Of a stretch of 64,000 nucleotides of DNA, positions 21,627-62,651 are shown piece after piece. The DNA lies in assembly GCA_947561715.1 (NCBI GenBank), contig OX387197.1:18956266-19020265 (forward strand), in the 5' to 3' direction. This stretch comes from Ascidia mentula. Its lineage: Eukaryota; Chordata; Ascidiacea; Phlebobranchia; Ascidiidae. Within the stretch, counting starts at the first letter, position 1, and each line of letters opens with the position of its first letter. A model generated the notes under the pieces. It made no database searches. It saw nothing but the letters and a program-made list of their open reading frames with translations, and was not told the origin of the DNA. The position numbers and the translations under genes were made by a program.

Positions 21627-23610
21627 CTATTGCTTCTTTTCGTCGTCAGGTAACAGAACATCAATCGGCGTAAAACTGTAGAAGGTGACGTCACGTTTGC
21701 TATGTTCAGACTTCCTAAACCTCTTGTCGGTTTGATGAAAACCGTCCAGAAATCCGTTTGTGCCAAAGCACTCGTTGAAACTGGAATCAACACAGAAAAA
21801 AACATTTCAGGTTGTGAACAGGTTAACATCAAAGTTGCCAAAATATGAATAAAATGTGATGCCGCAGCATTACCAAAAACTAAAGTCACTCTACGTCATA
21901 AAATTCGTTAAAAAAGTTGCTTTATGTATTGTTAGGACTTTCACTTCAAGATACAGTTTTAGTGCAATCTAGATTTACTTTTTATTTCAGCATAGTTTCG
22001 ATTCAAACTTACTTATAGTGGTGAAAATCGTGAAACTGTGGGGAGCTAAGGAAAGGTAAGTGGTAGCCTGAGTGATGTATCAATGTGCTGATTTGGCCTT
22101 TAGCAACGTAATACCATGTAAGTATGATGTGGTTGCCAAGAAGAAATGTTCCCACGAAAAGCGGGACAAACTCCTCGATCTACAAGACACAAGAATTCCA
22201 TATATCTGTGTTTGAATTATAACGGAACTAAAGGTAAAATATATGTATTGCAGCCAATTTGGATTAAGTCGGAGCGAGATCTGAAAAACTGCGGGTGATG
22301 TTTAAACTCACGAACTGGGCTGACCAGGCCCAACGCTCTACCAACCAAACTACAGGAGCTCGGTGGTTTCACGGGGTATATTGTGGCCTGTTGTGAAAAC
22401 GCACAACTTACTGCGTTGCAGAAAAATAACGTCGGCAACGAAGCAGCTGCGGCTGAATATGTGGGTAATATTTGGTGATTTGGTGAACAAATTGACTCGT
22501 GTGAAAGTGAGTTCATTTATTCACACGCTTCGAAAGAAAAGTAACTTTCAAAAATTTTACTTACACAATTGTCGAACGGGTGGGCGTAACCTGAGTTCAC
22601 ACAGATTGGTGTAGTCCATTTGTGATGCTGTTTGTGAAAGAGTTTGTAGAATGGAGGCAAATGAAGAAATCTAGAAATTTAAAACCAAAGTTTATCCTGT
22701 CTGGAAGACTTTTTGCGCTCATTGTACCGAATATTTAAAAAATAAAAATGTGGTCTGTTGATGCAATTGCGTTTCTACACAAATACCTGTGACCGTAGTA
22801 AAATGTCGCTTCGTCGGCGTAACTCATCACATAAAACTGGATGATCAGAACCCAAATATCGGGAAGTGGGTTAAGAGCTGAGACGCCCCTTGCCTTTAGC
22901 AAAGGATAACAAAGGCAGAAGATGAAGCATGTGATGAGTTCGTTGCAGGTTGCGAGCAACGCACAGCGAAAGTAGCTTTTCTTGTCAATCTAACACATCG
23001 GAAAACATGCTGTTACTCACAGTAACGACCATGAATGCTGGATTCATGGATAAGACGATCATTGCGTTAAGAAATATCGCATGCGTGAGGTGCGACTATA
23101 TGTAACTGTATTTGTGACCATGCGTACGTTGAAGAAAATACATTGCTGTTATGAGGATACTTTTGCAGCTGAAACAATATCAAAAAGTTCCCGTTTTTTT
23201 CACACAAATTTACTTGTTTCTTTCTTTTTTGAATCTTGTACTTGAGAAGACAACTCGGTTTGCCTGTGAGATCCAATATCATGAAAAAGAAACTCACTAC
23301 CAGAAAGGGAAGCATTATAGCCAATATTGTGCCTGCAATCCAGTTAATACTCGTTGAAGTTTTATCATATAAGAGAAATTAACAATGACATTACATATTT
23401 TTACACCAGTAATGTATGCTTTATCGTTTATCACAACCAAAATCGTAAAGTTATTTTTCAATTTAGGCAGTTGTTATTCAATTATTTGTATTTAACTTAT
23501 TTAGTCTTCATACCTACGCATATGACAAACTTCTCGTCGTTATCAACAAAATCCAAAACTTTCGACCAATAAGTCTCCAACAACCTTTTTGTTTCGTGTT
23601 AATATTCCAT
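21627..23610 (-). pseudogene. FAXDC2-like fatty acid hydroxylase, copy 1 (stop at codon 4)
   Basis: Exons on the minus strand: 23514–23610, 23214–23332, 22787–22989, 22565–22670, 22013–22179, 21627–21780. Every junction is GT–AG and all phases agree (1, 0, 2, 0, 2), giving a 281-codon frame. It belongs to the membrane di-iron fatty acid hydroxylase/sterol desaturase superfamily, which oxidises lipids or sterols in the ER. Histidine boxes: HRFLH (139–143), HKQHH (152–156) and HDFHH (225–229), plus SGYH before the last. Hydrophobic segments lie near residues 34–54, 83–103, 115–130 and 179–201. Codon 4 is TAA (TAC in copies 4–7) and the next in-frame ATG is codon 38, so an intact product is unlikely. 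A minus-strand AATAAA lies at 21364–21369. Confidence 0.85.
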
Positions 23611-24819
23611 ATCTTTTTTCAACTAAAGATTTTTGGTTTCTGTTTCTGTTATTAGATGTGAAATACAGTAACCACATAAGTAAACAACCCCAATAGCAAG
23701 GGCATATATGTGGACGACCTGCGACCATTGCGGGCATCTGATCTCCGCGGGATTCTGAAAAAAACTGTTACCTCGTGCCTTCTGCTCGTTTGTATTTGTA
23801 TTTCAAACCTGCAAATAACATGCGACCGGTAACCTGACGATAACTGATGCCATTTCAGTAACTATTCTTACAAAGCATTTGCTTTAAAACTGAATCAGAC
23901 AGGTTTTAATTCAAATAAGAATAAATTTTCGCCCTGTGGGTTTTGGGAGTTCCGGTGATGTAAACACAAGAGCACAAGGTGGTCAGCGAGAAACGTGGAA
24001 CACTTCACATAAAGCAAGGAGCACCAGCACATTCTTACCGCTTACCCAATGAACCCGGATTATAATACTAAAGTGTCTATTGCCATTTACAGTTTGGCCA
24101 TTCACAAAAAAGAAAAAAAAACAGTTTGGCCCAATATCGCATGTTAGTTTGACACCGTTGACGTGAACCCGACACGAGGCTTTTCGCATTAAATGAGGCG
24201 TCGCACAATTTTCCACTTCCTGGGGCGTTCACTAAAAATCTGCGTGACCTTTCAGCTGTTAGACTTATATACAAAAACAATTATACTATCACTATTTCGT
24301 CCTATAAAACGTCTACGCTGTATATAATCTCTAAACTAAAGTTATGACAATTTGCTTTTTCCTCACAAGGAAAGTATTTTCTGCCAAGAGCGGCATTGTT
24401 GTGGTGTTTTTTTCTGGGACATCGCCAAAAGCGCACTCGGTTGGAAAACACCAATTTAATTTCTCGCTTCCTGTCTTTACAGATCGTATAATTCTCAAAT
24501 TGTCATTGAATTTTCTGTTGTTAAAGTGACAAATTAATTGGTTGGTATAGCTACGCTGTGAGGAGATCGTTCGAAGTAACAGATGCAAAAAAAACACACG
24601 AATTCAAAATATAAGTGGAAGACACCGCGCGTCGCAATGACTCGCGAAGCTTCCAAATCCAAAATGTCAAGGGACGGCACCACCTGCTCATTCCGTAAAT
24701 GCCAATGACAAAATTGCACATCGATGAACGTCAATGACCCGAGTCCAGTCAAACCGCGCACTACTACTTTTCACTTTATGGACGGAGGTGGCTAAATACT
24801 GCCTCAGAACGACCTAGAC
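23611..24819. other. Upstream flank of gene copy 1 (pattern for all units)
   Basis: About 1.2 kb between the first coding exon and the hAT remnant. A possible 3' splice site (AATCTTTAG on the minus strand) lies about 15–20 bp before the ATG, so a 5' non-coding exon or trans-splicing is possible. Short open frames here differ between units and are not coding. A 31-bp segment near the middle is missing in U1–U3 and present in U4–U7 (41673, 47394, 53051, 63362). Confidence 0.6.
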
Positions 24820-25206
24820 CACTGTTTCTCAAACTTTTTTTCTGTACCGCCCCCCCCCAAATACATTAGTCAATTAACAACGCCGAACAGAACGGACAAA
24901 AAACATAACGAATTTTTTTGCTGCTTGTCAATTATGCGATGGGTGAGGTTGGTGCAATGATACCAATTTCTCAACATCAGGTTTCATGTTGGGCAAAAAA
25001 CAATCGTAAGTGTCCTCTATTGACGATATCAAGAACAGATTTCTCTTTCCATCCAAAAGAGTAGTAAATGCGCTGAACGCACGTTCCACCGAGTAAGAGC
25101 TGAGAAAATTGCAAAAAGGTGCTCGCGTACCTCCTGGAATTCGGTCGCATACCACTAGTGGTAAACGTAACACCGGTTGGGAAACACTCGTCGGCCTAAA
25201 CAACAT
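24820..25206 (-). pseudogene. hAT transposase C-terminal remnant with terminus (U2)
   Basis: The same remnant with the element end preserved: CACTGTTTCTCAAACTTTTT at 24820, one base away from the usual hAT start CAGTGTTTCTCAAAC, followed by a C-run. The coding remnant is 24928–25206. The opposite end of the element was not found, so it is internally truncated. Confidence 0.75.
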
Positions 25207-26020
25207 CCATAAAATGATGTGCGTAACGTCCGTTGAACGCGCCCCGGTTCTTGGCGCGGAACGTCACACGAGGCGGAATTCCCGCAGTTAAAACGCGTAT
25301 CTTTAATGGGCCTCAAACTCGCTCACTCAGTTCATGTTATTCTTGTTATAATGTGCAGTACGCACTCGTACGCAAGATAGAATGTATTCGAAGTGTAGAC
25401 GATACAGACGTCGGGAGGAAACGAAAAGACAAGTAGGACACGTGGACCCTTAGAACACGGTTTCTACACAGAAGGCTCACCAACTATTCGGGAACCGGGA
25501 AAACTCTGGACCACAAAGACGGTCCAAGCAGTTACTGTCTCACACCTAAATGAAACAAGCAACATAAACTACAGTGCGCCACTACGACGTAACACACGCA
25601 ATGCTTACCGATAACTTGGGGCGACAGAAGATTGAATACACCACGCTTCACGTGTGTACAAATGCAAGAGATACACTGTGAGTACAAAGACAGCGTCAAC
25701 ACCGTGTGTAAACCTAATCACATAAACAAGGGCAGCTATATACTGTTCAGCGAACTGACTTCTAAGTCATCGCAGTTAACTTTGCCAAAGTTACCAATTT
25801 ACACATTCATTTGGTACTTCAGTCGTTTCACACATATGTACAAATAGACTCACCAGAAAATGCTCGCTCGCAACACAAAAAACCTTTTGCAGAATAAAAA
25901 TGACGTGGCACTGTGCTGCACAGTTATCGAACACAAAAAGGACAGAACCACGTTGCGTTATCACTTAAAACTTGGACTCCTATTAATACGTCACAGACCG
26001 TATGGGATTGCAACACACAT

Positions 26021-26162
26021 AGGCCGAGTCCACACTCAAGCTTTGCGGCGGTGGATTCTTTGTTTGTTTCATTATACGCCAGAGTGCGGGCGTACGCTCG
26101 GGACAATGAAACAAACAAACAAACAATCCGCCGACGCAAAGCGTGAGTGTGGACCCGGCCTT
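26021..26162. mobile_element. Foldback MITE (U2)
   Basis: Almost the whole element is an inverted repeat. The left arm starts AGGCCGAGTCCACACTCA and the right arm ends with its complement (TGAGTGTGGACCCGGCCT), with CAAACAAA runs near the centre. No coding capacity. U1 has no element at the matching place (20237). Target duplication is unclear; a short TA/TTA type is possible. Confidence 0.85.
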
Positions 26163-27488
26163 AGTGTAGAGAAAAATGTGCATTCATAGAAATCGGCAAA
26201 TTACTGGCAAACAAGATGTAACGATGTGGAAAACGTCTGAAAAACAACAATTATAAATGGTATGTAGCGCACATGTTAATAATTTCCTTTACAAAATCTG
26301 TTATTGTGACTTTGAATTTGAACACCAAACAACCGGAAATGTCCTGAAGCATATTTTCAACTTTTCCTCTGGCACGTAAGGACGTTGTTGTCACACGTGC
26401 CTTGTTACGTTTGCGTGTCACTGCAAAACCAGTTTCTAATACTTTGTTCCCTGGCAAAAAAGCAAGTCGTGTTATAATAAAAAGTGTTTTCTATATAAAA
26501 TTTATTCGTAAAAGACTGCACAGGTACTCTGAATAGTCTTCATTAAAAAAATTGTGATATGGAACAGATAAGAACAATAATACCAATCCCTACCGAGCAA
26601 AACACAATTCAATTTTACGGCACCAAGGGTGAAAAAAAACTTCAACTTCTTGCAATAGTTTTGTGACCAGGTTAGCAAAAGACACTGATGTGTTGCAAGC
26701 ATTGCAGGAGAAGGCAAGAGAATTGCTACGTTTGTATAAATGTCAATCTTTACATCGATTGCGCATAATAGTATACCTGGTGGTTTAAAGTTTGTGTAGT
26801 TTCAGATGTATGATAAATCGGTCACCCACACGCAAACAAAGCAGGTCGTATGCTTAATACACTATTGGGGGCCGTTCGCAATATATCGTTGAAATAGGTT
26901 TGTCGCAAAAATGCTGGAAATACTAGCATCCCAACGAAAGGTCCGCATCAATTGCTGTACAAAAAGCCAATAGCAATTACCTAATTACAATGAAATGTGC
27001 GATAAATTTTTGCTAAATTTCTAATTCCATTTTTACATAACAAAATGAAGCAGTGACTGGAAAATATTTCATGATAAAAGTTTGTGCCTTCTATAAGCAT
27101 AGGCCTACATTATAAAACAACAAATGGCACCCATACCGAATGATGGAATCCACTTCAATAGACGGACAAAGCAAGCTTTATGTGCTACTCGTAAATATTT
27201 AACACGATTCAAGTCAAGCGTGAAGTTTATTCGATAAGGCGTTTTTCCGACAACAAAAATGTTCAATCCGAAGCTGAACAAAGACAACACTTCAGATGAA
27301 TTGGTGACATTGTTTACTTTTAAAGTTATTTGCTACTTTTATCAGCTCTGCTACAAGCCTCCTTTTTCAAAATATATTATTTTTTTTACAAATTAGACAG
27401 AAAACAGTCGCACCCGCAAATTGTAAAGTTAAAAAGTGTTGTATGTAACTTGTTGCATTTATACACCGCGTCCAAGTCGCTGTGTAAA

Positions 27489-29470
27489 CTATTGCTTCTT
27501 TTCGTCGTCAGGTAACAGAACATCAATCGGCGTAAAACTGTAGAAGGTGACGTCACGTTTGCTATGTACAGACTTCCTAAACCTCTTGTCAGTTTGATGA
27601 AAACCGTCCAGAAATCCGTTTGTGCCAAAGCACTCGTTGAAACTGGAATCAACACAGAAAAAAACATTTCAGGTTGTGAACAGGTTAACATCAAAGTTGC
27701 CAAAATATGAATAAAATGTGATGCCGCAGCATTACCAAAAACTAAAGTTACTCTACGTCATAAAATTCGTTAAAAAAGTTGCTTTATGTATTGTTAGGAC
27801 TTTCACTTCAAGATACAGTTTTAGTGCAATCTAGATTTACTTTTTATTTCAGCATAGTTTCGATTCAAACTTACTTATAGTGGTGAAAATCGTGAAACTG
27901 TGGGGAGCTAAGGAAAGGTAAGTGGTAGCCTGAGTGATGTATCAATGTGCTGATTTGGCCTTTAGCAACGTAATACCATGTAAGTATGATGTGGTTGCCA
28001 AGAAGAAATGTTCCCACGAAAAGCGGGACAAACTCCTCGATCTACAAGACACAAGAATTTCATATATCTGTGTTTGAATTATAACGGAACTAAAGGTAAA
28101 ATATATGTATTGCAGCCAATTTGGATTAAGTCGGAGCGAGATCTGAAAAACTGCGGGTGATGTTTAAACTCACGAACTGGGCTGACCAGGCCCAACGCTC
28201 TACCAATCAAACTACAGGAGCTCGGTGGTTTCACGGGGTATATTGTGGCCTGTTGTGAAAACGCACAACTTACTGCGTTGCAGAAAAATAACGTCGGCAA
28301 CGAAGCAGCTGCGGCTGAATATGTGGGTAATATTTGGTGATTTGGTGAACAAATTGACTCGTGTGAAAGTGAGTTCATTTATTCACACGCTTCGAAAGAA
28401 AAGTAACTTTCAAAATGTTTACTTACACAATTGTCGAACGGGTGGGCGTAACCTGAGCTCACACAGATTGGTGTAGTCCATTTGTGATGCTGTTTGTGAA
28501 AGAGTTTGTAGAATGGAGGCAAATGAAGAAATCTAGAAATTTAAAACCAAAGTTTATCCTGTCTGGAAGACTTTTTGCACTCATTGTACCGAATATTTAA
28601 AAAATAAAAATGTGGTCTGTTGATGCAATTGCGTTTCTACACAAATACCTGTGACCGTAGTAAAATGTCGCTTCGTCGGCGTAACTCATCACATAAAACT
28701 GGATGATCAGAACCCAAATATCGGGAAGTGGGTTAAGAGCTGAGACGCCCCTTGCCTTTAGCAAAGGATAACAAAGGCAGAAGATGAAGCATGTGATGAG
28801 TTCGTTGCAGGTTGCGAGCAACGCACAGCGAAAGTAGCTTTTCTTGTCAATCTAACACATCGGAAAACATGCTGTTACTCACAGTAACGACCATGAATGC
28901 TGAATTCATGGATAAGACGATCATTGCGTTAAGAAATATCGCATGCGTGAGGTGCGACTATATGTAACTGTATTTGTGACCATGCGTACGTTGAAGAAAA
29001 TACATCGCTGTTATGAGGATACTTTTGCAGCTGAAACAATATCAAAACAATAGTTTTTTTCACACAAATTTACTTGTTTCTTTCTTTTTTGAATTTTGTA
29101 CTTGAGAAGACAACTCGGTTTGCCTGTGAGATCCAATATCATGAAAAAGAAACTCACTACCAGAAAGGGAAGCATTATAGCCAATATTGTGCCTGCAATG
29201 CAGTTAATACTCGTTGAAGTTTTATCATATAAGAGAAATTAACAATGGCATTACATATTTTTACACCAGTAATGTATGCTTTATCGTTTATCACAACCAA
29301 AATCGTAAAGTTATTTTTCAATTTAGGCAGTTGTTATTCAATTATTTGTATTTAACTTATTTAGTCTTCATACCTACGCATATGACAAACTTCTCGTCGT
29401 TATCAACAAAATCCAAAACTTTCGACCAATAAGTCTCCAACAACCTTTTTGTTTCGTGTTAATATTCCAT
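27489..29470 (-). pseudogene. FAXDC2-like fatty acid hydroxylase, copy 2 (stop at codon 4)
   Basis: Exons 29374–29470, 29074–29192, 28649–28851, 28427–28532, 27875–28041, 27489–27642, with lengths identical to copy 1 (97, 119, 203, 106, 167 and 154 bp). The first exon has the same TAA at codon 4. The rest of the frame is open and all histidine boxes are kept. Intron 2 is altered near its start (29041–29060) but its splice sites survive. Likely polyadenylation signal at 27226–27231. The intact remainder suggests the nonsense change is recent or that the copy is kept by sequence exchange. Confidence 0.85.
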
Positions 29471-31880: not shown

Positions 31881-32025
31881 AGGCCGAGTCCACACTCAAG
31901 CTTTGCGGCGGTGGATTCTTTGTTTGTTTCATTATACGCCAGAGTGCGGGCGTACGCTCGGGACAATGAAACAAACAAACAAACAAACAATCCGCCGACG
32001 CAAAGCGTGAGTGTGGACCCGGCCT
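31881..32025. mobile_element. Foldback MITE (U3)
   Basis: As in U2 but with one extra AAAC unit in the central run, a length shared with U4. Confidence 0.85.
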
Positions 32026-33351: not shown

Positions 33352-35396
33352 CTATTGCTTCTTTTCGTCGTCAGGTAACAGAACATCAATCGGCGTAAAA
33401 CTGTAGAAGGTGACGTCACGTTTGCTATGTACAGACTTCCTAAACCTCTTGTCAGTTTGATGAAAACCGTCCAGAAATCCGTTTGTGCCAAAGCACTCGT
33501 TGAAACTGGAATCAACACAGAAAAAAACATTTCAGGTTGTGAACAGGTTATCACCAAAGTTGCCAAAATATGAATAAAATATGATGCCGCAGCATTACCA
33601 AAAACTAAAGTCACTCTACGTCATTAAATTCGTTAAAAAAGTTGCTTCATGTATTGTTAGGACTTTCACTTCAAGATACAGTTTTAGTGCAATCCAGATT
33701 TACTTTTTATTTCAGCATAGTTTTGATTCAATCTTACTTATAGTGGTGGAAATCGTGAAACTGTGGGGAGCTAAGGAAAGGTAAGTGGTAGCCTGAGTGA
33801 TGAATCAATGTGCTGATTTGGCCTTTAGCAACGTAATACCATGTAAGGATGATGTGGTTGCCAAGAAGAAATGTTCCCACGAAAAGCGGGACAAACTCCT
33901 CGATCTGCAAGACACAAGAATTTCATTTTTCTGTGTTTGAATTATAACGGAACTAAAAGTAAAACATCCGGCAGTTAAGATTAGATAATTTCTTTGAAGC
34001 CTAGAGAAAACACAGAAAGAAAAAAAAGGTTAACAGGCTTCGCATCCCAGACATTGCAGCCTAGTTGGATCAAATCGGAGCTCCCAGTGAGGTTTGAACT
34101 CACGACTTTAGGCTAACCAGGCCCGACGCTCTACCAACCGAATTACAGGAGGTCTATATTGTGGCCTGGTGTGAAAACGCACAACTTACTGCGTTGCAGA
34201 AAAATAACGTGTGCAACGAAGCAGCTGCGGTTGAATATGTGGGTATTGTGAGTCAAAGATCTGGTGAATAAATTAACTCGTGTGAAAGTGAGTTCATTTA
34301 TTCACACGCTTCGAAATAAAAGCAAAAATTAAAAAATTTTCACTCACAAAATTGTCGAACGGGTGGGCGTAACCAGAGCTCACACAGATTGGTGTAGTCC
34401 ATTTGTGATGCTGTTTGTGAAACCGCTTGTAGAATGGAGGCAAATGAAGAAATCTAGAAATTTAAAACCAAAGTTTATCCTGTCTGGAAGACTTTTTGCG
34501 CTCATTGTACCGAATATTTAAAAAATAAAAATTTGGTCTGTTGATGCAATTGCGTTTCTACACAAATACCTGTGACCGTAGTAAAATGTCGCTTCGTCGG
34601 CGTAACTCATCACATAAAACTGGATGATCAGAACCCAAATATCGGGAAGTGGGTTAAGAGCTGAGACGCCCCTTGCCTTTAGCAAAGGATAACAAAGGCA
34701 GAAGATGAAGCATGTGATGAGTTCGTTGCAGGTTGCGAGCAACGCACAGCGAAAGTAGCTTTTCTTGTCAATCTAACACATCGGAAAACATGCTGTTACT
34801 CACAGTAACGACCATGAATGCTGGATTCATGGATAAGACGATCATTGCGTTAAGAAATATCGCATGCGTGAGGTGCGATTAATGATGTAACTGTATTTGT
34901 GACCATGCGTACGTTGAAGAAAATACATCGCTGTTATGAGGATATTTTTGCAGCTGAAACAATATCAAAAAGTTCCCGTTCTTTTTCTCACAAATTTACT
35001 TGTTTCTTTCTTTTTTGAATTTTGTACTTGAGAAGACAACTCGGTTTGCCTGTGAGATCCAATATCATGAAAAAGAAACTCACTACCAGAAAGGGAAGCA
35101 TTATAGCCAATATTGTGCCTGCAATGCAGTTAATACTCGTTGAAGTTTTATCATATAAGAGAAATTAACAATGGCATTACATATTTTTACACCAGTAATG
35201 TATGCTTTATCGTTTATCACAACCAAAATCGTAAAGTTATTTTTCAATTTAGGCAGTTGTTATTCAATTATTTGTATTTAACTTATTTAGTCTTCATACC
35301 TACGCATATGACAAACTTCTCGTCGTTATCAACAAAATCCAAAACTTTCGACCAATAAGTCTCCAACAACCTTTTTGTTTCGTGTTAATATTCCAT
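33352..35396 (-). pseudogene. FAXDC2-like fatty acid hydroxylase, copy 3 (stop at codon 4, hybrid)
   Basis: Exons 35300–35396, 35000–35118, 34570–34772, 34348–34453, 33738–33904, 33352–33505. The first exon has the TAA of copies 1–2. Exon 4 has the variants of copies 4–5: YKRFHKQHH instead of YKLFHKQHH, and an exon end of FDNF with donor GTGAGT instead of FDNC with GTAAGT. Intron 4 contains the tRNA-like sequence. The copy therefore joins a copy-1-type 5' part to a copy-4-type 3' part, with the exchange point between exons 4 and 1. All other splice sites and histidine boxes are intact. Confidence 0.85.
34081..34152 (-). repeat. tRNA-derived sequence in intron 4 (copy 3)
   Basis: On the minus strand the 72 bp reads like a tRNA: a CTCCTGT acceptor side, D-arm GGTTGGTAGAGC (A box), a perfect 5-bp T stem around TTCAAAC (GTGAG/CTCAC, B box), and a partly paired TGGGAG end. 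The anticodon arm is poor, so it is more likely the head of a SINE or a pseudo-tRNA than a working tRNA. Confidence 0.6.
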
Positions 35397-39239: not shown

Positions 39240-41279
39240 CTATTGCTTCTTTTCGTCGTCAGGTAACAGAACATCAATCGGCGTAAAACTGTAGAAGGTG
39301 ACGTCACGTTTGCTATGTACTGACTTCCTAAACCTCTTGTCAGTTTGATGAAAACCGTCCAGAAATCCGTTTGTGCCAAAGCACTCGTTGAAACTGGAAT
39401 CAACACACAAAAAAATCAGGTTGTGAACAGGTTAACATCAAAGTTGCCAAAATATGAATAAAATATGATGCCGCAGCATTACCAAAAACTAAAGTCACTC
39501 TACGTCATAAAATTCGTTAAAAAAGTTGCTTCATGTATTGTTAGGACTTTCACTTCAAGATACAGTTTTAGTGCAATCCAGATTTACTTTTTGTTTCAGC
39601 ATAGTTTTGATTCAATCTTACTTATAGTGGTGGAAATCGTGAAACTGTGGGGAGCTAAGGAAAGGTAAGTGGTAGCCTGAGTGATGAATCAATGTGCTGA
39701 TTTGGCCTTTAGCAACGTAATACCATGTAAGGATGATGTGGTTGCCAAGAAGAAATGTTCCCACGAAAAGCGGGACAAACTCCTCGATCTGCAAGACACA
39801 AGAATTTCATTTTTCTGTGTTTGAATTATAACGGAACTAAAAGTAAAACATCCGGCAGTTGAGATTAGATAATTTCTTTGAAGCCTAGAGAAAACACAGA
39901 AAGAAAAAAAAAGGTTAACAGGCTTCGCATCCCAGACATTGCAGCCTAGTTGGATCAAATCGGAGCTCCCAGTGAGGTTTGAACTCACGACTCTAGGCTA
40001 ACCAGGCCCCACGCTCTACCAACCGAATTACAGGAGGTCTATATTGTGGCCTGGTGTGAAAACGCACAACTTACTGCGTTGCAGAAAAATAACGTGTGCA
40101 ACGAAGCAGCTGCGGTTGAATATGTGGGTATTGTGAGTCAAAGATCTGGTGAATAAATTAACTCGTGTGAAAGTGAGTTCATTTATTCACACGCTTCGAA
40201 ATAAAAGCAAAAATTAAAAAAATTTCACTCACAAAATTGTCGAACGGGTGGGCGTAACCAGAGCTCACACAGATTGGTGTAGTCCATTTGTGATGCTGTT
40301 TGTGAAACCGCTTGTAGAATGGAGGCAAATGAAGAAATCTAGAAATTTAAAACCAAAATTTATCCTGTCTGGAAGACTTTTTGCGCTCATTGTACCGAAT
40401 ATTTAAAAAATAAAAATTTGGTCTGTTGATGCAATTGCGTTTCTACACAAATACCTGTGACCGTAGTAAAATGTCGCTTCGTCGGCGTAACTCATCACAT
40501 AAAACTGGATGATCAGAACCCAAATATCGGGAAGTGGGTTAAGAGCTGAGACGCCCCTTGCCTTTAGCAAAGGATAACAAAGGCAGAAGATGAAGCATGT
40601 GATGAGTTCGTTGCAGGTTGCGAGCAACGCACAGCGAAAGTAGCTTTTCTTGTCAATCTAACACATCGGAAAACATGCTGTTACTCACAGTAACGACCAT
40701 GAATGCTGGATTCATGGATAAGACGATCATTGCGTTAAGAAATATCGCATGCGTGAGGTGCGACTGTATGTAACTGTATTTGTGACCATGCGTACGTTGA
40801 AGAAAATACATCGCTGTTATGAGGATATTTTTGCAGCTGAAACAATATCAAAAAGTTCCCGTTCTTTTTTGCACAAATTTACTTGTTTCTTTCTTTTTTG
40901 AATCTTGTACTTGAGAAGACAACTCGGTTTGCCTGTGAGATCCAATATCATGAAAAAGAAACACACTACCAGAAAGGGAAGCATTATAGCCAATATTGTG
41001 CCTGCAATGCAGTTAATACTCATTGAAGTTTTATCAAATAAGAGAAATTAACAATGACATTACATATTTTTACACCAGTAATGTATGCTTTATCGTTTAT
41101 CACAACCAATATCGTAAAGTTATTTTTCAATTTAGGCAGTTCTTATTCAATTATTTGTATATAACTTATTTAGTTTTCATACCTACGCATATGACAAACT
41201 TCTCGTCTTTGTCAACAAAATCCAAAACTTTCGACCAATAAGTCTCGAACAACCTTTTTGCTTCGTGGTAATATTCCAT
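39240..41279 (-). CDS. FAXDC2-like fatty acid hydroxylase/sterol desaturase, copy 4
   Basis: Exons 41183–41279, 40883–41001, 40455–40657, 40233–40338, 39622–39788, 39240–39393; the 281-codon frame is open throughout. It starts MEYYHEAKRLFETYW; the ATG sits in a good context (AACATGG). The N-terminal part leads to FVICVG, then a membrane segment and KYKIQ, as in the family. Boxes HRFLH, HKQHH and HDFHH are complete, followed by a C-terminal exon with FGTNGFLDGFHQTD, the usual end of the domain. One unusual residue in the first membrane segment is VVCFFF instead of VVSFFF. It is of FAXDC2 type rather than methylsterol oxidase, because SGYHLPF and the short C-terminus fit better. Substrate is unknown. 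Confidence 0.9.
39966..40037 (-). repeat. tRNA-derived sequence in intron 4 (copy 4)
   Basis: Same 72-bp tRNA-like sequence with a few substitutions in the anticodon arm (GGGGCC for CGGGCC). Confidence 0.6.
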
Positions 41280-44957: not shown

Positions 44958-47000
44958 CTATTGCTTCTTTTCGTCGTCAGGTAACAGAACATCAATCGGC
45001 GTAAAACTGTAGAAGGTGACGTCACGTTTGCTATGTACAGACTTCCTAAACCTCTTGTCAGTTTGATGAAAACCGTCCAGAAATCCGTTTGTGCCAAAGC
45101 ACTCGTTGAAACTGGAATCAACACAGAAAAAAACATTTCAGGTTGTGAACAGGTTATCACCAAAGTTGCCAAAATATGAATAAAATATGATGCCGCAGCA
45201 TTACCAAAAACTAAAGTCACTCTACGTCATTAAATTCGTTAAAAAAGTTGCTTCATGTATTGTTAGGACTTTCACTTCAAGATACAGTTTTAGTGCAATC
45301 CAGATTTACTTTTTGTTTCAGCATAGTTTTGATTCAATCTTACTTATAGTGGTGGAAATCGTGAAACTGTGGGGAGCTAAGGAAAGGTAAGTGGTAGCCT
45401 GAGTGATGAATCAATGTGCTGATTTGGCCTTTAGCAACGTAATACCATGTAAGGATGATGTGGTTGCCAAGAAGAAATGTTCCCACGAAAAGCGGGACAA
45501 ACTCCTCGATCTGCAAGACACAAGAATTTCATTTTTCTGTGTTTGAATTATAACGGAACTAAAAGTAAAACATCCGGCAGTTAAGATTAGATAATTTCTT
45601 TGAAGCCTAGAGAAAACACAGAAAGAAAAAAAAGGTTAACAAGCTTCGCATCCCAGACATTGCAGCCTAGTTGGATCAAATCGGAGCTCCCAGTGAGGTT
45701 TGAACTCACGACTCTAGGCTAACCAGGCCCCACGCTCTACCAACCGAATTACAGGAGGTCTATATTGTGGCCTGGTGTGAAAACGCACAACTTACTGCGT
45801 TGCAGAAAAATAACGTGTGCAACGAAGCAGCTGCGGTTGAATATGTGGGTATTGTGAGTCAAAGATCTGGTGAATAAATTAACTCGTGTGAAAGTGAGTT
45901 CATTTATTCACACGCTTCGAAATAAAAGCAAAAATTAAAAAATTTTCACTCACAAAATTGTCGAACGGGTGGGCGTAACCAGAGCTCACACAGATTGGTG
46001 TAGTCCATTTGTGATGCTGTTTGTGAAACCGCTTGTAGAATGGAGGCAAATGAAGAAATCTAGAAATTTAAAACCAAAGTTTATCCTGTCTGGAAGACTT
46101 TTTGCGCTCATTGTACCGAATATTTAAAAAATAAAAATTTGGTCTGTTGATGCAATTGCGTTTCTACACAAATACCTGTGACCGTAGTAAAATGTCGCTT
46201 CGTCGGCGTAACTCATCACATAAAACTGGATGATCAGAACCCAAATATCGGGAAGTGGGTTAAGAGCTGAGACGCCCCTTGCCTTTAGCAAAGGATAACA
46301 AAGGCAGAAGATGAAGCATGTGATGAGTTCGTTGCAGGTTGCGAGCAACGCACAGCGAAAGTAGCTTTTCTTGTCAATCTAACACATCGGAAAACATGCT
46401 GTTACTCACAGTAACGACCATGAATGCTGGATTCATGGATAAGACGATCATTGCGTTAAGAAATATCGCATGCGTGAGGTGCGACTGTATGTAACTGTAT
46501 TTGTGACCATGCGTACGTTGAAGAAAATACATCGCTGTTATGAGGTTATTTTTGCAGCTGAAACAATATCAAAAAGTTCCCGTTCTTTTTCGCACAAATT
46601 TACTTGTTTCTTTCTTTTTTGAATTTTGTACTTGAGAAGACAACTCGGTTTGCCTGTGAGATCCAATATCATGAAAAAGAAACTCACTACCAGAAAGGGA
46701 AGCATTATAGCCAATATTGTGCCTGCAATGCAGTTAATACTCATTGAAGTTTTATCAAATAAGAGAAATTAACAATGACATTACATATTTTTACACCAGT
46801 AATGTATGCTTTATCGTTTATCACAACCAATATCGTAAAGTTATTTTTCAATTTAGGCAGTTCTTATTCAATTATTTGTATATAACTTATTTAGTTTTCA
46901 TACCTACGCATATGACAAACTTCTCGTCTTTGTCAACAAAATCCAAAACTTTCGACCAATAAGTCTCGAACAACCTTTTTGTTTCGTGGTAATATTCCAT
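44958..47000 (-). CDS. FAXDC2-like fatty acid hydroxylase/sterol desaturase, copy 5
   Basis: Exons 46904–47000, 46604–46722, 46176–46378, 45954–46059, 45344–45510, 44958–45111; open over 281 codons. It differs from copy 4 by HETKRLF in exon 1 and VVSFFF in exon 2, while sharing YKRFHKQHH and FDNF in exon 4 and the tRNA-like sequence in intron 4. All metal-binding histidines are present. It is the most typical intact copy of the U4/U5 class. Confidence 0.9.
45687..45758 (-). repeat. tRNA-derived sequence in intron 4 (copy 5)
   Basis: Near-identical to the copy 4 sequence. A more decayed relative occupies intron 4 of copies 1, 2 and 6 (for example 22291–22359). Confidence 0.6.
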
Positions 47001-50667: not shown

Positions 50668-52652
50668 CTATTGCTTCTTTTCGTCGTCAGGTAAAAGAAC
50701 ATCAATCGGCGTAAAACTGTAGAAGGTGACGTCACGTTTGCTATGTACAGACTTCCTAAACATCTTGTCAGTTTGATGAAAACCGTCCAGAAATCCGTTT
50801 GTGCCAAAGCACTCGTTGAAACTGGAATCAACACAGAAAAAAACATTTCAGGTTGTGAACAGGTTAACATCAAAGTTGCCAAAATATGAATAAAATGTGA
50901 TGCCGCAGCATTACCAAAAACTAAAGTCACTCTACGTCATAAAATTCGTTAAAAAAGTTGCTTTATGTATTGTTAGGACTTTCACTTCAAGATACAGTTT
51001 TAGTGCAATCTAGATTTACTTTTTATTTCAGCATAGTTCCGATTCAAACTTACTTATAGTGGTGAAAATCGTGAAACTGTGGGGAGCTAAGGAAAGGTAA
51101 GTGGTAGCCTGAGTGATGTATCAATGTGCTGATTTGGCCTTTAGCAACGTAATACCATGTAAGTATGATGTGGTTGCCAAGAAGAAATGTTCCCACGAAA
51201 AGCGGGACAAACTCCTCGATCTACAAGACACAAGAATTCCATATATCTGTGTTTGAATTATAACGGAACTAAAGGTAAAATATATGTATTGCAGCCAATT
51301 TGGATTAAGTCGGAGCGAGATCTGAAAAACTGCGGGTGATGTTTAAACTCACGAACTGGGCTGACCAGGCCCAACGCTCTACCAACCAAACTACAGGAGC
51401 TCGGTGGTTTCACGGGGTATATTGTGGCCTGTTGTGAAAACGCACAACTTACTGCGTTGCAGAAAAATAACGTCGGCAACGAAGCAGCTGCGGCTGAATC
51501 TGTGGGTAATATTTGGTGATTTGGTGAACAAATTGACTCGTGTGAAAGTGAGTTCATTTATTCACACGCTTCGAAAGAAAAGTAACTTTCAAAATTTTTA
51601 CTTACACAATTGTCGAACGGGTGGGCGTAACCTGAGCTCACACAGATTGGTGTAGTCCATTTGTGATGCTGTTTGTGAAAGAGTTTGTAGAATGGAGGCA
51701 AGTGAAGAAATCTAGAAATTCAAAACCAAAGTTTATCCTGTCTGGAAGACTTTTTGCGCTCATTGTACCGAATATTTAAAAAATAAAAATGTGGTCTGTT
51801 GATGCAATTGCGTTTCTACACAAATACCTGTGACCGTAGTAAAATGTCGCTTCGTCGGCGTAACTCATCACATAAAACTGGATGATCAGAACCCAAATAT
51901 CGGGAAGTGGGTTAAGAGCTGAGACGCCCCTTGCTTTTGGCAAAGGATAACAAAGGCAGAAGATGAAGCATGTGATGAGTTCGTTGCAGGTTGCGAGCAA
52001 CGCACAGCGAAAGTAGCTTTTCTTGTCAATCTAACACATCGGAAAACATGCTGTTACTCACAGTAACGACCATGAATGCTGGATTCATGGATAAGACGAT
52101 CATTGCGTTAAGAAATATCGCATGCGTGAGGTGCGACTATATGTAACTGTATTTGTGACCATGCGTACGTTGAAGAAAATACATCGCTGTTATGAGGATA
52201 CTTTTGCAGCTGAAACAATATCAAAAAGTTCCCGTTTTTTCACACAAATTTACTTGTTTCTTTCTTTTTTGAATTTTGTACTTGAGAAGACAACTCGGTT
52301 TGCCTGTGAGATCCAATATCATGAAAAAGAAACTCACTACCAGAAAGGGAAGCATTATAGCCAATATTGTGCCTGCAATGCAGTTAATACTCATTGAAGT
52401 TTTATCATATAAGAGAAATTAACAATGGCATTACATATTTTTACACCAGTAATGTATGCTTTATCGTTTATCACAACCAAAAAATCGTAAAGTTATTTTT
52501 CAATTTAGGCAGTTGTTATTCAATTATTTGTATATAACTTATTTAGTTTTCATACCTACGCATATGACAAACTTCTCGTCGTTATCAACAAAATCCAAAA
52601 GTTTCGACCAATAAGTCTCGAATAACCTTTTTGTTTCGTGGTAATATTCCAT
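50668..52652 (-). CDS. FAXDC2-like fatty acid hydroxylase/sterol desaturase, copy 6
   Basis: Exons 52556–52652, 52254–52372, 51828–52030, 51606–51711, 51054–51220, 50668–50821; open over 281 codons. Exon 4 is of the KLFHKQHH/FDNC type, like copies 1, 2 and 7. Distinct changes: SKLLDF in exon 1, a Leu-to-Pro change giving CYPLPKARG at the end of the second hydrophobic segment, and TDKMFRK in exon 6. The proline could disturb the membrane hairpin, but no reading-frame damage is seen. Confidence 0.9.
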
Positions 52653-54792: not shown

Positions 54793-54995
54793 CCATACCT
54801 TGCACTATGTCCATCATAGGTAAGTTTCTTAATTGTTAGGGTAGTCACGCTATACCTTGCACTATGTCCATCATAGGTAAGTTCGTTAATTGTTAGGGTA
54901 GTCACGCTATACCTTGCACTATGTCCATGATAGGTAAGTTTGTTCATTGTTAGGGTAGTCACGCTATACATTGCACTATGTCCATCACGTTAATA
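54793..54995 (-). repeat. 57-bp minisatellite, inverted arm
   Basis: About 3.5 tandem units of 57 bp (core CTATACCTTGCACTATGTCC) in the orientation opposite to the units that follow. The switch lies at about 54996–55005. Confidence 0.9.
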
Positions 54996-54999
54996 AACA

Positions 55000-55555
55000 T
55001 TAACGTTTAACAAACTTACTTATCATGGTCATATTGCAAGGTATAGCGTGACTACCCTAACGTTTAACAAACTTACCTATCATGGACATATTGCAAGGTA
55101 TAGCGTGACTACATTAACGTTTAACAAACTTACCTATCATGGGCATAGTGCAAGGTATAGCCTGACTACTCTAAAGTTTAACAAACTTACCCATCATGGA
55201 CATAGTGCAAGGTATAGAGTGACTACCTTAACGTTTAACAAACTTACCTATCATAGACATAATGCAAGGTATAGCGTGACTACCTAAACGATTAGCAAAC
55301 TTACCTGTCATTGACATAATGCAAGGTATAGCGTGACTACCTAAACTATTAGCAAACTCACCTATCATAGACATAATGCAAGGTATAGCGTGACTACTCT
55401 AACGTTTAACTATCGTGGACACAGTGTAAGGTATTGCGTGACTACCTTAACGTTTAACAAAGTTACCTATCGTGGACACAGTGCAAGGTATAGCGTGACT
55501 ACCTTAACGTTTACAAAGTTACCTATCGTGGACACAGTGCAAGGTATAGTGTGAC
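55000..55555 (+). repeat. 57-bp minisatellite, direct arm
   Basis: About ten units with core GGACATAGTGCAAGGTATAG. The spacing between successive GCAAGG strings is 57 bp (55036, 55093, 55150); later units are shorter. A last part-unit continues at 57504–57560, after the inserted element. An apparent open frame here is just the repeat. Confidence 0.92.
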
Positions 55556-57503
55556 CATAGTATACTCTTATGGTAGTGCAACGGCTCCTATTTTCTTTGT
55601 TTGTTTTATTGTCTGTGGGAAACTCCGTCACGCATGATTTCCAGGAGATCAAATGCGACTTTTTGCATACGAAGAGATAGGAAACACGCAAACAAATTGG
55701 AATTACTTAAAACGTGGGTAGAATTTTAAAACGAATTTTCAGTATGTTAAAACAAGTATTATACTGATTCGAATGGGTAAAAAAATAAGAAATAAATCAT
55801 TTCCTTTTTTGAAATAACGCATCGTTTTTCCGAAAAAATTTTTGAAGGCCTTGTGCAAATGGAATGAAAAAGCGTAAGTATGCCACTTTGCATTTGTTTT
55901 TCTTGTTAAGTGTGTTTCAACATGCCTCTGCTGACGTAATCTAACTGTGACGTAATCATGACGCAGATTGTGAGTACTAATCTGGCTAAAACAGCTTTGT
56001 TTGTTGTAGAAAGACATTTTAAGGCAAAATAACGTAGTCTGCCATAAGTAGACTATATTTTGAAGTTATTCCGGGTGTTCAGACATTTATAAATGTGCTG
56101 CTAATCTATGTTTGCATGTATCTTATATCTTGATGTAATATTTTAATAGGGTTTGACCATTTTTATGTGTTGGATATGTATCAATGCACTCCATAAACTA
56201 AAAAGTGACCAAACAAAGTTAGTAGATTTTGGTATTATGTCACAGGTTCGCATGTTGCAGTTTAAAGTAAAACTCCACTTAATCTGTCTTCCTTGCCTAA
56301 ATTTGTAAGTCCAAATTATCACATACTATTTTGCCAGAACAAGACAGAAGTAATATATTTCAGACAATCTTCAGGATTCTCAGATGAAAGAAGCAAGATT
56401 TTTGTACCAATCTCCACAAATTTATATCATTTGAATTCTGTCTCTGATGAAACCATTTAATTTGTTCAAATATTATAAAATTATTGTAAGTTTTATAGTG
56501 TATGATAATAAATTATAAATCAAAATGTATGACTAACTCCTGTCTAGAAAAAAACAATCACCACACAAAAAGTAAACAGGATACTTTATTTATGTACAAT
56601 TGCAAAGGAAATACTCATGTCATGCTTGCATCAGAATATATTTCAACAACATGAAACCCAAAGCTTCTTTGAAAAATACATTTTTGAATCTTAAGTTAAC
56701 AGGCACATCATGTATTGCTAACTTTTTTATCTAGTTTTGTTTCTCCACACTGTGAATTTTGTAAACAACAACCTAAAAGAATTCAAAAATATGTTTCTGT
56801 ATGGCAAATACACACAAGATTACATCTACATAACAAACTGACTCACATAGAAAAACCTGTAGGTGATTATGAAACATATCATATTACATAAATTTGTATG
56901 CATATTCTTCAAAAAAATATTTTTGCCTGTGGTAGCTAGGCTACTTAACTTTACCAGTTTCACAAAGTTTATTTCAGAGCAAGCAGCCCCAAAGCATTTC
57001 GACCTTTGGTCATTTGTTGATGTACATAGTAGTTAGGAATTGAATCTTGCATGAAAATCACAATACCTAAAAAAACGCATCTTTTACACGATAGGATACA
57101 TTATAACCGTATTTATGCCTATAAATTGACGTCATGATTACGTCACTAGATTTATTACGTCAACACAGGTATGTTTATACATACTCAAGCCAAATATTAC
57201 ATAAGGTGGTATACTTGCACTTTAAAATTTCCAATTTACACATGGTGTCCAAAAACTGTTCGACAAAACATCACCGTACCTCGGAAAGAAGGGTAGAAAA
57301 TATTTAATATTTTTAATTATTGGAATCAATATAGTACTAACTTTAACATACTAAAAATTCAGCTCGAAACTCTACCCACGTTTTAAGTAATTCCAATTTA
57401 TTTGTTAGTTTCCTATCTCTTCGTATGCAAAAAGTCGCATTTGATCTCCTGGAAGTCATGCGTGACGGAGACAATGGTTGCACTACCATAAGAGTATACT
57501 ATG
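55556..57503. mobile_element. Long-TIR DNA transposon remnant, 1948 bp, inside the minisatellite
   Basis: The ends are inverted copies: CATAGTATACTCTTATGG… on the left and …CCATAAGAGTATACTATG on the right. They are flanked by a 7-bp repeat GTGTGAC (55549–55555 and 57504–57510), possibly 5 bp if a further C/G belongs to the ends. Similarity resumes after a left-side insertion of about 35 bp and extends, weakly, to a TGACGTAATC-containing segment about 400 bp in (near 55935 and 57130). No transposase was recognised. Confidence 0.82.
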
Positions 57504-57700
57504 GTGTGACTACCTTAACGTTTACAAAGTTACCTATCGTGGACGCTGTGCAATATATAGGGTAAATGATTTCAATTACCCTCCTTGGATGAAAATATGT
57601 ACACGCCCTGTTTGCCGCTGCAGTCACGTGTTTAGGTTACCGATTTTATCCAGATTACTGATCTTGGACGCTAACCTATGTTGGCCGTAACGTTACAACC
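57504..57700 (+). other. Right flank of the minisatellite insertion
   Basis: Begins with a last minisatellite part-unit (to about 57560), then about 140 bp of sequence not seen in other units before rejoining unit sequence at GTTAACTTTGCC (57709). About 60 bp present in the other units (GCAGCTATATACTGTTCAGC…) is missing, so the block replaced rather than simply interrupted unit sequence. Confidence 0.7.
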
Positions 57701-57952
57701 CCTTCTCGTTAACTTTGCCAAAGTTACAATTTACACATTTATTTGGTACTTCAGTCGTTTCACACATATGTACAAATAGACTCACCAGAAAATGCTCGTT
57801 CGCAACACAAAAAACCTTTTGCAGAATAAAAATGACGTAGCACTGTGCTGCACAGTTGTCGAACACAAAAAGGACAGAACCACGTTGCGTTATCACTTAA
57901 AACTTGGACTCCTATTATTACGTCACAGACCGTATGGGATTGCAACACACAT

Positions 57953-58096
57953 AGGCCGAGTCCACACTCACGCTTTGCGCCGGCGGATTCTTTGTTTGTT
58001 TAATTATACGCCGGCGTGCGGGCGTACGCTCGGGACAATGAAACAAACAAACAAACAATCCGCCGGCGCAAAGCGTGAGTGTGGTGGACCCGGCCT
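57953..58096. mobile_element. Foldback MITE (U7)
   Basis: Best-preserved palindrome, with GCCGGCGGATT paired to AATCCGCCGGC; it has a GTG duplication near the right end (GTGTGGTGGACC). Confidence 0.85.
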
Positions 58097-59408
58097 TAGT
58101 GTAGAGAAAAATGTGCATTCATAGAAATCGGCAAATTACTGGCAAACAAGATGTAACGATGTGGAAAACGTCTGAAAAACAACAATTATAAATGGTATGT
58201 AGCGCACATGTTAATAATTTCCTTTACAAAATCTATTATTGTGACTTTGAATTTGAACACAAAACAACCGTAAATGTCCTGAAGCATATATTCAACTTTA
58301 CCTCTGACACGTAAGGACGTTGTTGTCACACGTGCCTTGTTACGTTTGCGTGTAACTGCAAAACGAGTTTCTAATACTGTGTTACCTGGCGTAAAAGCAA
58401 GCCGTGTTATGATAAGTAAAGTGACTTTTCTCCTTTGTAAAATATTTTTGCAAAAGACTGCACAGTTACTCTGAATAGCCTTCATTAAAATCATTGTGAT
58501 ATGGAACAGATAAGAACAATATATACCAATCCCTACCGAGCAAAACACAATTCAATTTTACGGCACTTAGGGTTTAAAACAAATTCAACCTGTTGCAATA
58601 GTTTTGTGACCAGGTTAGCAAAGACACTGATGTGTTGCAAGTATTGCTGGAGAAGGCAAGAGAATTGCTACGTTTGCATAAATGTCATTCTTTACATCGA
58701 TTGCGTATAATAGTATACCTGGTGGTTTAAAGTTTGTGTAGTTTCAGATGTATGATAAATCGGTCACCCACACGCAAACAAAGCAGGTCGTATGCTTAAT
58801 ACACTATTGGGGGCCGTTTGCAATTTATCGTTGAAATGGGTTTGTTATTAAAAAAACGAGAAAGAGTTATAAATGCTTGCATCATGGTGCAAGACAAAAA
58901 TGCTAGAAATACTAGAATCCCAACGAGGGTTCGCATCAATTGCGGTACAAAAAGCCAAATGAAGCAATGACTGGAAAATATTTCACGTTGAAAGTTTGTG
59001 CCTTCTATAAGCATAGGCCTGCATTATAAAACAACAAATAGCACCCATGCCGAAGGGAATCCACTTCAATAGACGGACAAAGCAAGCTTTATGTGCTAAA
59101 TATTTACTACGATTCAAGTCAAGCGTGAAATTAAAAACTTTATTCGATAAAGCGTTTTTTCGACAACAAAAATGTTCAATCCGAAGCTAAAAGCTGAACA
59201 AACGCAACACTTCAGACGAATTGGTGACATTGCTTACTTTTAAAGTTATTTGCTACTTTTATCAGCTCTGCTACAAGCTTCCTTTTTCAAAATAAATTAT
59301 TTTTTTTACAAATTAGACAGAAAACAGTCGCACCCGCAAATTGTAAAGTTAAAAAGTGTTGTATGTAACTTGTTGCATTTATACACCGCGTCCAAGTCGC
59401 TGTGTAAA

Positions 59409-62400
59409 CTATTGCTTCTTTTCGTCGTCAGGTAACAGAACATCAATCGGCGTAAAACTGTAGAAGGTGACGTCACGTTTGCTATGTACAGACTTCCTAA
59501 ACCTCTTGTCGGTTTGATGAAAACCGTCCAGAAATCCGCTTGAGCCAAAGCACTCGTTGAAACTGGAATCAACACACAAAAAAACATTTCAGGTTGTGAA
59601 CAGGTTAACACCAAAGTTGCCAAAATATGAATAAAATGTGATGCCGCAGCATTACCAAAAACAAAAGTCACTCTACGTCATAAAATTCGTTAGAAAAGTT
59701 GCTTCAAGTATTGTTAGGACTTTCACTTCAAGATACAGTTTTAGTGCAATCTAGATTTACTTTCTATTTCAGCATAGTTTCGATTCAAACTTACTTATAG
59801 TGGTGGAAATCGTGAAACTGTGGGGAGCTAAGGAAAGGTAAGTGGTAGCCTGAGTGATGAATCAATGTGCTGGTTTGGCCTTTAGCAACGTAATACCATG
59901 TAAGTATGATGTGGTTGCCAAGAAGAAATGTTCCCACGAAAAACGGGACAAACTCCTCGATCTACAAGACACAAGAATTCCATATATCTGTGTTTCAATT
60001 ATAATGGGGCCTGGTGTGAAAACGCACAACTTACTGCGTTGCAGAAAAATAACGTGTGTAACGAAGCAGCTGCGGGTGAATATTTGGGAAATACAAGTCA
60101 AAGATTTGGTAAATAAATTGCTCGTGTGGAAGTGAGTTCATTTATTCACACGCTTCGAAATTAAAGTAACTTTCAAAATTTTCACTTACACAATTGTCCA
60201 ACGGGTGGGCGTAACCTGAGCTCACACAGATTGGTGTAGTCCATTTGTGATGCTGTTTGTGAAAGAGTTTGTAGAATGGAGGCAAGTGAAGAAATCTAGA
60301 AATTTAAAACCAAAGTTTATCCTGTCTGGAAGACTTTTTGCGCTCATTTTACCGAATATTAAAAAAGTAAAAATGTGGTCTGTTGATGCAATTGCGTTTC
60401 TACACAAATACCTGTGACCGTAGTAAAATGTCGCTTCGTCGGCGTAACTCATCACATAAAACTGGATGATCAGAACCCAAATATCGGGAAGTGGGTTAAG
60501 AGCTGAGACGCCCCTTGCTTTTAGCAAAGGATAACAAAGGCAGAAGATGAAGCATGTGATCAGTTCGTTGCAGGTTGCGAGCAACGCACAGCGAAAGTAG
60601 CTTTTCTTGTCAATCTACAACATCGGAAAACATGCTGTTACTCAAAGTAACGACCATGAATGCTGGATTCATGGATAAGACGATCATTGCGTTAAGAAAT
60701 ATCGCATGCGTGCGGTGCGATTAATGATGTAACTGTATTTGTGACCATGCGTACGTTGAAGAAAATATATCGATGTTATGAGGTTACTTTTGCAGCTAAA
60801 AGAATATAAAAAGTCCCTTTTTTACTCATATTTACTTGTTGCTTTCTTTTTTGAATTTTGTACTTGAGAAGACAACTCGGTTTGCCTGTGAGATCCAATA
60901 TCATGAAAAAGAAACTCACTACCAGAAAGGGAAGCATTACAGCCAATGTAGTGCCTGCAATGCAGTTATTACTCATTGAAGTTTTATCATATAATACTAT
61001 GTTTCCATGTCGCGATTTGGCTTAGCCCAAAATGTTTGGTCCATGTTTTACGTTTTGGTCCTAAAACGGGTCGTGTTTCCATGTCGCGTACGCATTCAAG
61101 CGTAACAATTTTTCGCCCTTCACTGATCGTGTCGCGGGGTTTTTGAAAGTGCGAAAACCTGACAAATCGTCTCTATCGGACGCTTGTGTCTCAAAAAAGT
61201 TTGATTCGAACTGTGTGGCAGTTGTTTTAGTGTCTTTCCGCACTTTTAATTAGTTTTTTTCCAATTTTGTGCATAGTACAATAACCATGGTTCAACCTTG
61301 AAAACAGATTGGCAAAGTTCTTCCAAACAACACAAGAGGTATGTTTAACTTGACTTTTATTACTAATAATGAAAAAAACAACCACTGTCAATCTTACAGA
61401 TATTTGAGAATCACTGGAGAGAGATGATTACTGCCATACAAGTGCAAAACTGGACAAAATTATGAATGTTTTATATTGTCCTTTACTTGTTGATTTGTTG
61501 AATGGGCAAAGCTTTATTGCAAAAAAAAATAAACAAAATGGTCAGAACATGTTGTCACAGTCCTTGCTTGTCAGGCCACAACTTCTAATCCTGGTGCTTT
61601 TTTAAGAGTGTTTGTGCATCTTCACAAGGGTAATGGAAATGTAGCATGTTCAACAATTTAAATGAACTTTGACTTCCAGAACTATTTTCTAGTTCATTTT
61701 CTTGCATAACTAATTAATAAGTGTATTTCAACAACAGTTGGTCATTGTGCTAGCTGTGGATCTGGGAAAATGACACAAAAAAATCATTCTGTGTGTTTTA
61801 TCTCCAAAGCTATTAAGTACCTAATCTGATGCAGTTATCTAGAATGTGGAAAAGCTATTGTGTTCACCAATTTGTAATACCATATATTGCATGAACATGC
61901 AAAAACTTTTATATGGTTATCAATGCATCCACAGCACTCTTGTCCACTTTCTAAGTTAAATTTATGCACAAAACTTACCATCAAAATGTTACATTTAAAA
62001 CTGCAGTTCAACATAACATCCATGCATAAAAGGATGAGAAAGGCCTATATAATCCACTTGCAAAGTAATAAAACGCCCCTTGCTACCCATCAAAAAAGAA
62101 ATATATTCACAATAAAAGCGATTAACGGAGGCTGTAAGTAACTGAGGACATTCATTTAAATACCGTGCAAAACGCGCGTTAAATTAATCGAAAAAGCTGC
62201 TGTTTACTGCGCAAAAAACTACTAAACCCTGCAGCAGTCATTACATGGCCGAAAAATTACTTGGCCAAAGTCAGTTAAGGACCACCTATTTTGATGGCCC
62301 AAAAATTCAGCCGTTTTGGCCAAGTACTCGGCCTGCGTCATTTGCGTCACTTCCATATTTGGTCACATGGCCCAAATACATGGACAAAACTCGCGACATG

Positions 62401-62651
62401 GAAACATAGTATAAGAGAAGATAACAATGACATATACATATTTTTACACTAGTGATGTATGCTTTATCGTTTATCACAACCAAAATCCTAATTTTCTTTC
62501 AATTTAAGCAGTTATTATTCAATTATTTGTATATAACTTATTCAGTTTTCATACCTACGCATATGACAAACTTCTCGTCGTTATCAACAAAATCCAAAAC
62601 TTTCGACCAATAAGTCTCAAACAACCTTTTTGTTTCGTCGTAATATTCCAT
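59409..62651 (-). CDS. FAXDC2-like fatty acid hydroxylase/sterol desaturase, copy 7 (large intron 1)
   Basis: Exons 62555–62651, 60836–60954, 60412–60614, 60190–60295, 59795–59961, 59409–59562; open over 281 codons. Intron 1 is 1600 bp instead of about 180 bp because a 1417-bp TIR element sits in it; both splice sites remain. It is the most diverged copy: MEYYDETKRLFE in exon 1, TTLAVMLPF in exon 2, HPLDNC in exon 4 and GSSGFLDGF in exon 6. Intron 4 is short and lacks the tRNA-like sequence. The histidine boxes are unchanged, which argues for continued constraint. Confidence 0.88.
60995..62411. mobile_element. TIR element in intron 1 of gene copy 7, 1417 bp
   Basis: Ends TACTATGTTTCCATGTCGCG and its inverse CGCGACATGGAAACATAGTA, flanked by TAA on both sides (60992–60994, 62412–62414). 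The matching intron in the other copies reads straight through this point. A 3-bp TAA duplication fits PIF/Harbinger-type elements. An internal GTGTTTCCATGTCGCG near 61073 repeats the terminus. No transposase frame was seen, so it is non-autonomous. Confidence 0.88.

Follow-up and report, generated by a model that had tools for sequence, protein, structure and literature searches.

A minus-strand cluster of tandem genes in the ascidian Ascidia mentula is, on our reading of the sequence, probably (roughly 80%) part of a young, homogenized tandem expansion of a FAXDC2-like di-iron lipid or sterol oxygenase of the endoplasmic reticulum (ER), with several of the copies broken. Seven PF04116-type units lie between positions 21627 and 62651 of the window (the whole 64,000-nucleotide stretch that was analyzed, C1:18956266 to 19020265 on chromosome 1), and all seven are at the coordinates given in the initial annotation. 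Four of these units have an open frame of 281 codons, and further members of the array lie outside the window.

Results

To describe the units, we used W4 as the reference copy and read the exon model from the minus strand of this unit. The model contains six exons of 97, 119, 203, 106, 167, and 154 nt, which together make a coding sequence of 846 nt. Exon sizes are the same in W1 to W7, the five introns have GT-AG borders in 7/7 units, and each exon gave seven ungapped matches in the window (the exon 4 match was 2 bases short at its end in four copies). This agrees with the spliced gene structure proposed in the initial annotation. We dropped an alternative model with an additional or displaced exon between exons 2 and 3, because it would need introns of only ~22 to 31 nt and because the paralogs are joined at this point as in the W4 model.

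Three of the seven units are interrupted near their start. W1 (21627 to 23610; exon 5′ ends at 23610, 23332, 22989, 22670, 22179, and 21780), W2 (27489 to 29470; 29470, 29192, 28851, 28532, 28041, and 27642), and W3 (33352 to 35396; 35396, 35118, 34772, 34453, 33904, and 33505) all have six exons on the minus strand, and in each of them codons 1 to 4 read ATG GAA TAT TAA, which places an in-frame stop at codon 4. The next in-frame methionine in these copies is residue 39, which falls within the first hydrophobic stretch (amino acids 34 to 52); these three copies are probably noncoding or N-terminally truncated. The full 281-residue frame is open in the other four minus-strand copies, namely, W4 (39240 to 41279; exon 5′ ends at 41279, 41001, 40657, 40338, 39788, and 39393), W5 (44958 to 47000; 47000, 46722, 46378, 46059, 45510, and 45111), W6 (50668 to 52652; 52652, 52372, 52030, 51711, 51220, and 50821), and W7 (59409 to 62651; 62651, 60954, 60614, 60295, 59961, and 59562). 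Thus, the array is not open in every copy, and the earlier claim that every unit encodes a 281-residue enzyme holds for only 4/7.

W7 is the most diverged copy in the window, and its intron 1 (60955 to 62554) measures 1,600 nt versus 181 to 183 nt in W1 to W6, indicating an insertion of ~1.4 kb. The interval from W6 to W7, ~3 kb longer than the other spacings, contains 57-bp tandem repeats (54795 to 55555) in two oppositely oriented blocks (3.4 and ~10 copies) that form long inverted repeats. Intron 4 of W4 contains, at ~39960 to 40045 on the minus strand, tRNA-like box motifs that by eye resemble a tRNA-derived short interspersed element. ARAGORN found no tRNAs in the window, and Rfam found no structured RNAs there.

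We then assessed the family to which the encoded protein belongs. W4, the sole copy run against Pfam as a whole protein, matched PF04116 (fatty acid hydroxylase superfamily) over amino acids 126 to 248 with 62.7 bits (cutoff, 31; E = 6e-17), and three further Pfam families scored below their cutoffs. This agrees with the membrane hydroxylase family named in the initial annotation. Enzymes of PF04116 are membrane di-iron oxygenases. All three histidine boxes mentioned in that annotation were also recovered: HRFLH, HKQHH, and HDFHH (HX3H, HX2HH, and HX2HH) are present in 7/7 window copies, with the histidines at positions 139 and 143; 152, 155, and 156; and 225, 228, and 229. Kyte-Doolittle analysis of W4 gave hydrophobic peaks only near amino acids 34 to 52, 81 to 111, and 179 to 197. 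Searches of the sequences of solved structures in the PDB, with single sequences and with profiles, returned no matches, so the catalytic assignment rests on Pfam and the motifs. Among bacterial and archaeal sequences, 98 stretches fit a search pattern and none was confirmed as a relative. Of the longer frames of the region, which had been described as shadows, six (101 to 134 amino acids, from the W4 stretch with its 173 mechanical open reading frames) were rejected as genes; they had no Pfam match up to E = 1, consistent with that description.

The array extends beyond the window. Two six-exon copies (U1 and U2) and a fragment with exons 5 and 6 only (U3) lie 76 to 99 kb left of W1 and on the same strand. 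U1 (C1:18.8787 to 18.8810 Mb) carries the TAA at codon 4 and has no stop codon at the point where the frame normally ends. U2 (C1:18.8861 to 18.8884 Mb) is open, and U3 lies near C1:18.901 Mb. The six-exon search behind these assignments covered ten loci (L030 to L035 and L047 to L050) spanning 18.866 Mb up to the window and 10 kb past it, except for 266 bases at the left edge of the window; L030 (which holds U1), L031 (which holds U2), and L032 alone gave matches. Seven is thus the correct count within the window and too low as a total for the array. U1 and U2 share an H228N substitution in the third histidine box, and these copies may therefore be catalytically dead or altered. Overall, the codon 4 stop is found in 3/7 window copies and in 4/9 six-exon copies, and a conserved histidine is lost in 2/9.

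A second array, made up of genes for a putative secreted peptide, occupies C1:18902121 to 18973498 between the two hydroxylase blocks. It has 18 copies, with a spacing of 3.3 to 3.8 kb in 15/17 intervals and a larger one in two; five copies lie in the window on the plus strand (3029 to 17233; ATGs at 3029, 6305, 9581, 13373, and 16893). The putative precursor of ~80 amino acids would be spliced from two exons and has a signal-peptide-like start, a glycine-rich end, and KR sites that flank SVQMGPEFVRHVRNLKYFQ. The first 110 nt look alike in 18/18 copies, and the copies at 13373 and 16893 lack five residues (FQKRS), with loss of the second KR site. Because exon 1 and the KR-flanked segment are kept in two diverged relatives (C1:6574112 and C1:6576345), the sequence suggests that these genes are a real family. 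The precursor had only sub-cutoff matches in Pfam and no match in a phage collection.

To characterize divergence among the hydroxylase copies, we compared exons and introns of W1 to W7. In exons, 37/846 sites are variable, with no indels, and codon positions 1, 2, and 3 account for 8, 9, and 20 of the changes, respectively; in introns (W7 omitted from intron 1), 123/1,228 sites are variable, with 19 indel events (Fisher P = 1.4e-6). The absence of exon indels, the lower variability of exons than of introns, and the excess of third-position changes indicate that the coding reading is not due to chance. Among the nine six-exon copies, dS is ≤0.10, and dN/dS is 0.08 to 0.50 over 36 pairs (0.1 to 0.4 in 32 of them), values that in such young copies are partly inherited from the parent and rest on few changes (for example, 3 between W3 and W5). 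Relative to W4, the remaining six copies in the window show 2 to 14 residue differences, with stops counted. The suggestion that the copies reflect diversification thus finds no support inside the array.

W3 is a mosaic. Its first part, comprising 998 nt of upstream sequence and the gene from exon 1 through exon 2, has no differences from W2; the rest of the gene, intron 2 through exon 6, is nearer to W4 and W5 than to W2, except in exons 3 and 6. The switch is clearest in intron 4, where W3 differs from W2 at 48/356 sites, from W4 at 4/443, and from W5 at 3/443. Exon 3 of W3 has no differences from W2, W4, or W5, and exon 6 has none in 154 nt from W2 and W5 and one from W4. In the 1 kb downstream, W3 is closest to W2 again (9/997). 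Because W3 combines W2-like and W4/W5-like tracts in this way, blocks seem to have moved between copies by exchange or gene conversion, including the 5′ block with the stop codon.

The mitochondrial cox1 of this genome has AGA and AGG codons at glycine positions, in keeping with the ascidian mitochondrial code. Protein searches of the 195.8-Mb, 79-contig genome identified at least 11 diverged relatives outside the array, at C1:18.11, C2:12.50, C72:0.19, C72:2.45, C72:1.097, C72:1.102, C72:1.105, C72:6.242, and C72:6.247 Mb and two at C2:17.07 Mb; a more distant relative at C73:7.99 Mb is excluded from this number. Two such searches gave the same set of places, and the counts are lower bounds. 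The C2:12.50 Mb locus is either a single gene or two parts separated by 8 kb. All 11 relatives have open exons with AG/GT borders whose lengths match or nearly match those of the array, which, as exon phases were imposed during modeling, shows only that such open exons exist there. All six exons could be modeled in 4/11 (C1:18.11, C72:2.45, C72:1.097, and one at C2:17.07 Mb); models of the remainder lack exons that were either not seeded or not recovered, and at C72:1.102, 1.105, 6.242, and 6.247 Mb certain ends differ in length. In an alignment of W4 with seven relatives that are 40 to 63% identical to it, histidines 139, 143, 152, 155, 156, 170, 192, 211, 215, 225, 228, 229, and 246 are invariant. 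A midpoint-rooted tree of 12 rows placed W1, W4, W6, W7, and U2 in one clade, with C1:18.11 Mb nearest and C72:2.45 Mb next; this sampling leaves aside W2, W3, W5, U1, and U3, the incomplete models (C2:12.50, C72:1.102, C72:6.242, and the second C2:17.07 Mb locus), and the distant C71 and C73 genes.

Comparison with characterized enzymes makes it plausible that the array enzyme is FAXDC2-like. The locus at C72:6.247 Mb is the one that we take, by eye, to be the most FAXDC2-like in this genome, and a search of it against NCBIfam gave only a chance-level match to another family (E = 0.11). This locus, to which W4 is ~40% identical, falls outside the clade of array proteins. We also compared the array with a gene at C71:12.000 Mb, presumably AGMO-like, which belongs to the same superfamily by PF04116; its exon peptides by eye have HQTHH- and HRVHH-type boxes, in contrast to HKQHH and HDFHH in the array. 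W4 also matched OlsE, a bacterial ornithine-lipid hydroxylase (NF052566), but weakly (21.1 bits versus a curated cutoff of 475), a likeness at the superfamily level only. FAXDC2 is reported to act as a C4-methyl sterol oxidase, and three histidine motifs are given for FAXDC2 and MSMO1 (PMC10940096). Like these two enzymes, the array has a PF04116 domain, the HX3H, HX2HH, and HX2HH motifs (PMC10940096), and a small protein with hydrophobic stretches; unlike them, it consists of nine tandem six-exon copies and a fragment. Among the matches listed in open-access text, from which print may differ, there was no report of this hydroxylase family in ascidians.

Discussion

In the mechanism that we propose, each intact copy in the window (W4 to W7) would encode a small protein of the ER membrane, whose HX3H, HX2HH, and HX2HH boxes would coordinate two iron atoms and, with O2 and a supply of reducing power, hydroxylate or demethylate a sterol or other lipid. 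Most likely, the enzyme oxidizes such a lipid with O2 in the ER; the substrate, redox partner, and location are predictions. The copies may be redundant or may act through dosage, and their lipid substrate is possibly species specific. Not every copy appears to be needed, because a premature stop interrupts 3/7 copies (4/9 with U1 and U2) and U1 and U2 carry H228N.

How such an array is maintained can be explained in several ways. One is that it is mostly decaying and neutral, with one or two copies at work and the rest being by-products of unequal crossing-over on their way to loss. We give this somewhat less than an even chance, and it overlaps our preferred reading, in which the role of the copies stays open. 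The TAA at codon 4 common to W1 to W3 and U1, which in W3 lies inside the tract identical to W2, speaks for decay, as do H228N in U1 and U2 and the reduction of U3 to exons 5 and 6, whereas the exons of W1 to W7 are free of indels and show an excess of third-position changes. The dN/dS of ≤0.5 in 36/36 pairs also argues against it, although young copies inherit the constraint of their parent. The initial annotation had suggested dosage selection as an alternative to diversification. Under such selection, a large number of nearly identical genes would increase the production of a single hydroxylase, and this can still be entertained, since W4 to W7 are all open with intact histidine boxes and W5 to W7 differ from W4 at only 2 to 14 residues. 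We nonetheless consider it unlikely: it is weakened by the codon 4 stops (3/7 copies in the window and 4/9 overall) and by the histidine loss in 2/9, and duplication and exchange in the recent past would leave the copies just as homogeneous. Recent tandem duplication together with exchange between copies suffices to explain the pattern, and selection for copy number need not be invoked.

The high similarity of the units could also point to misassembly or haplotype duplication, but such an artifact is very improbable here. W1 to W7 differ pairwise by 0.5 to 3.2% in exons and by 0.8 to 10% in introns, the additional 1.4 kb in intron 1 of W7 is private to that copy, and the assembly is described as 74x HiFi with a QV of 64.9 (PMC11109543). 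A young, homogenized, and partly broken tandem expansion remains our preferred reading.

Ascidian lipids offer one setting for these enzymes. Ascidian eggs release sulfated polyhydroxysteroids, such as the Ciona attractant SAAF (3,4,7,26-tetrahydroxycholestane-3,26-disulfate) (PMC9265791), and A. mentula has known alkyl sulfates, one of which is henicosane-1,21-diyl bis-sulfate (PMC6780655). Both classes require hydroxyl groups, and no result here ties the array genes to either. It is a long shot that the array and its at least 11 relatives supply hydroxyls for sulfated lipids, be they egg-released, species- or genus-specific SAAF-like sperm attractants, as known from Ciona, or the alkyl sulfates of A. 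mentula. None of the matches listed named hydroxylase genes for either product. Should the substrates be sterols or long-chain lipids that undergo sulfation afterward, the family would offer candidates for the genes behind the sperm attractants and alkyl sulfates of ascidians, and, were the sulfated-lipid reading true, turnover of the cluster would help to change a chemical signal between species.

Collectively, an already known enzyme superfamily has undergone a real tandem expansion here, one that is recent and partly broken and that looks like ordinary young gene-family growth. For a chordate near the vertebrates, it is a well-resolved case of a young array of genes in which copies are added, sequence is exchanged, and several members have the same premature stop.
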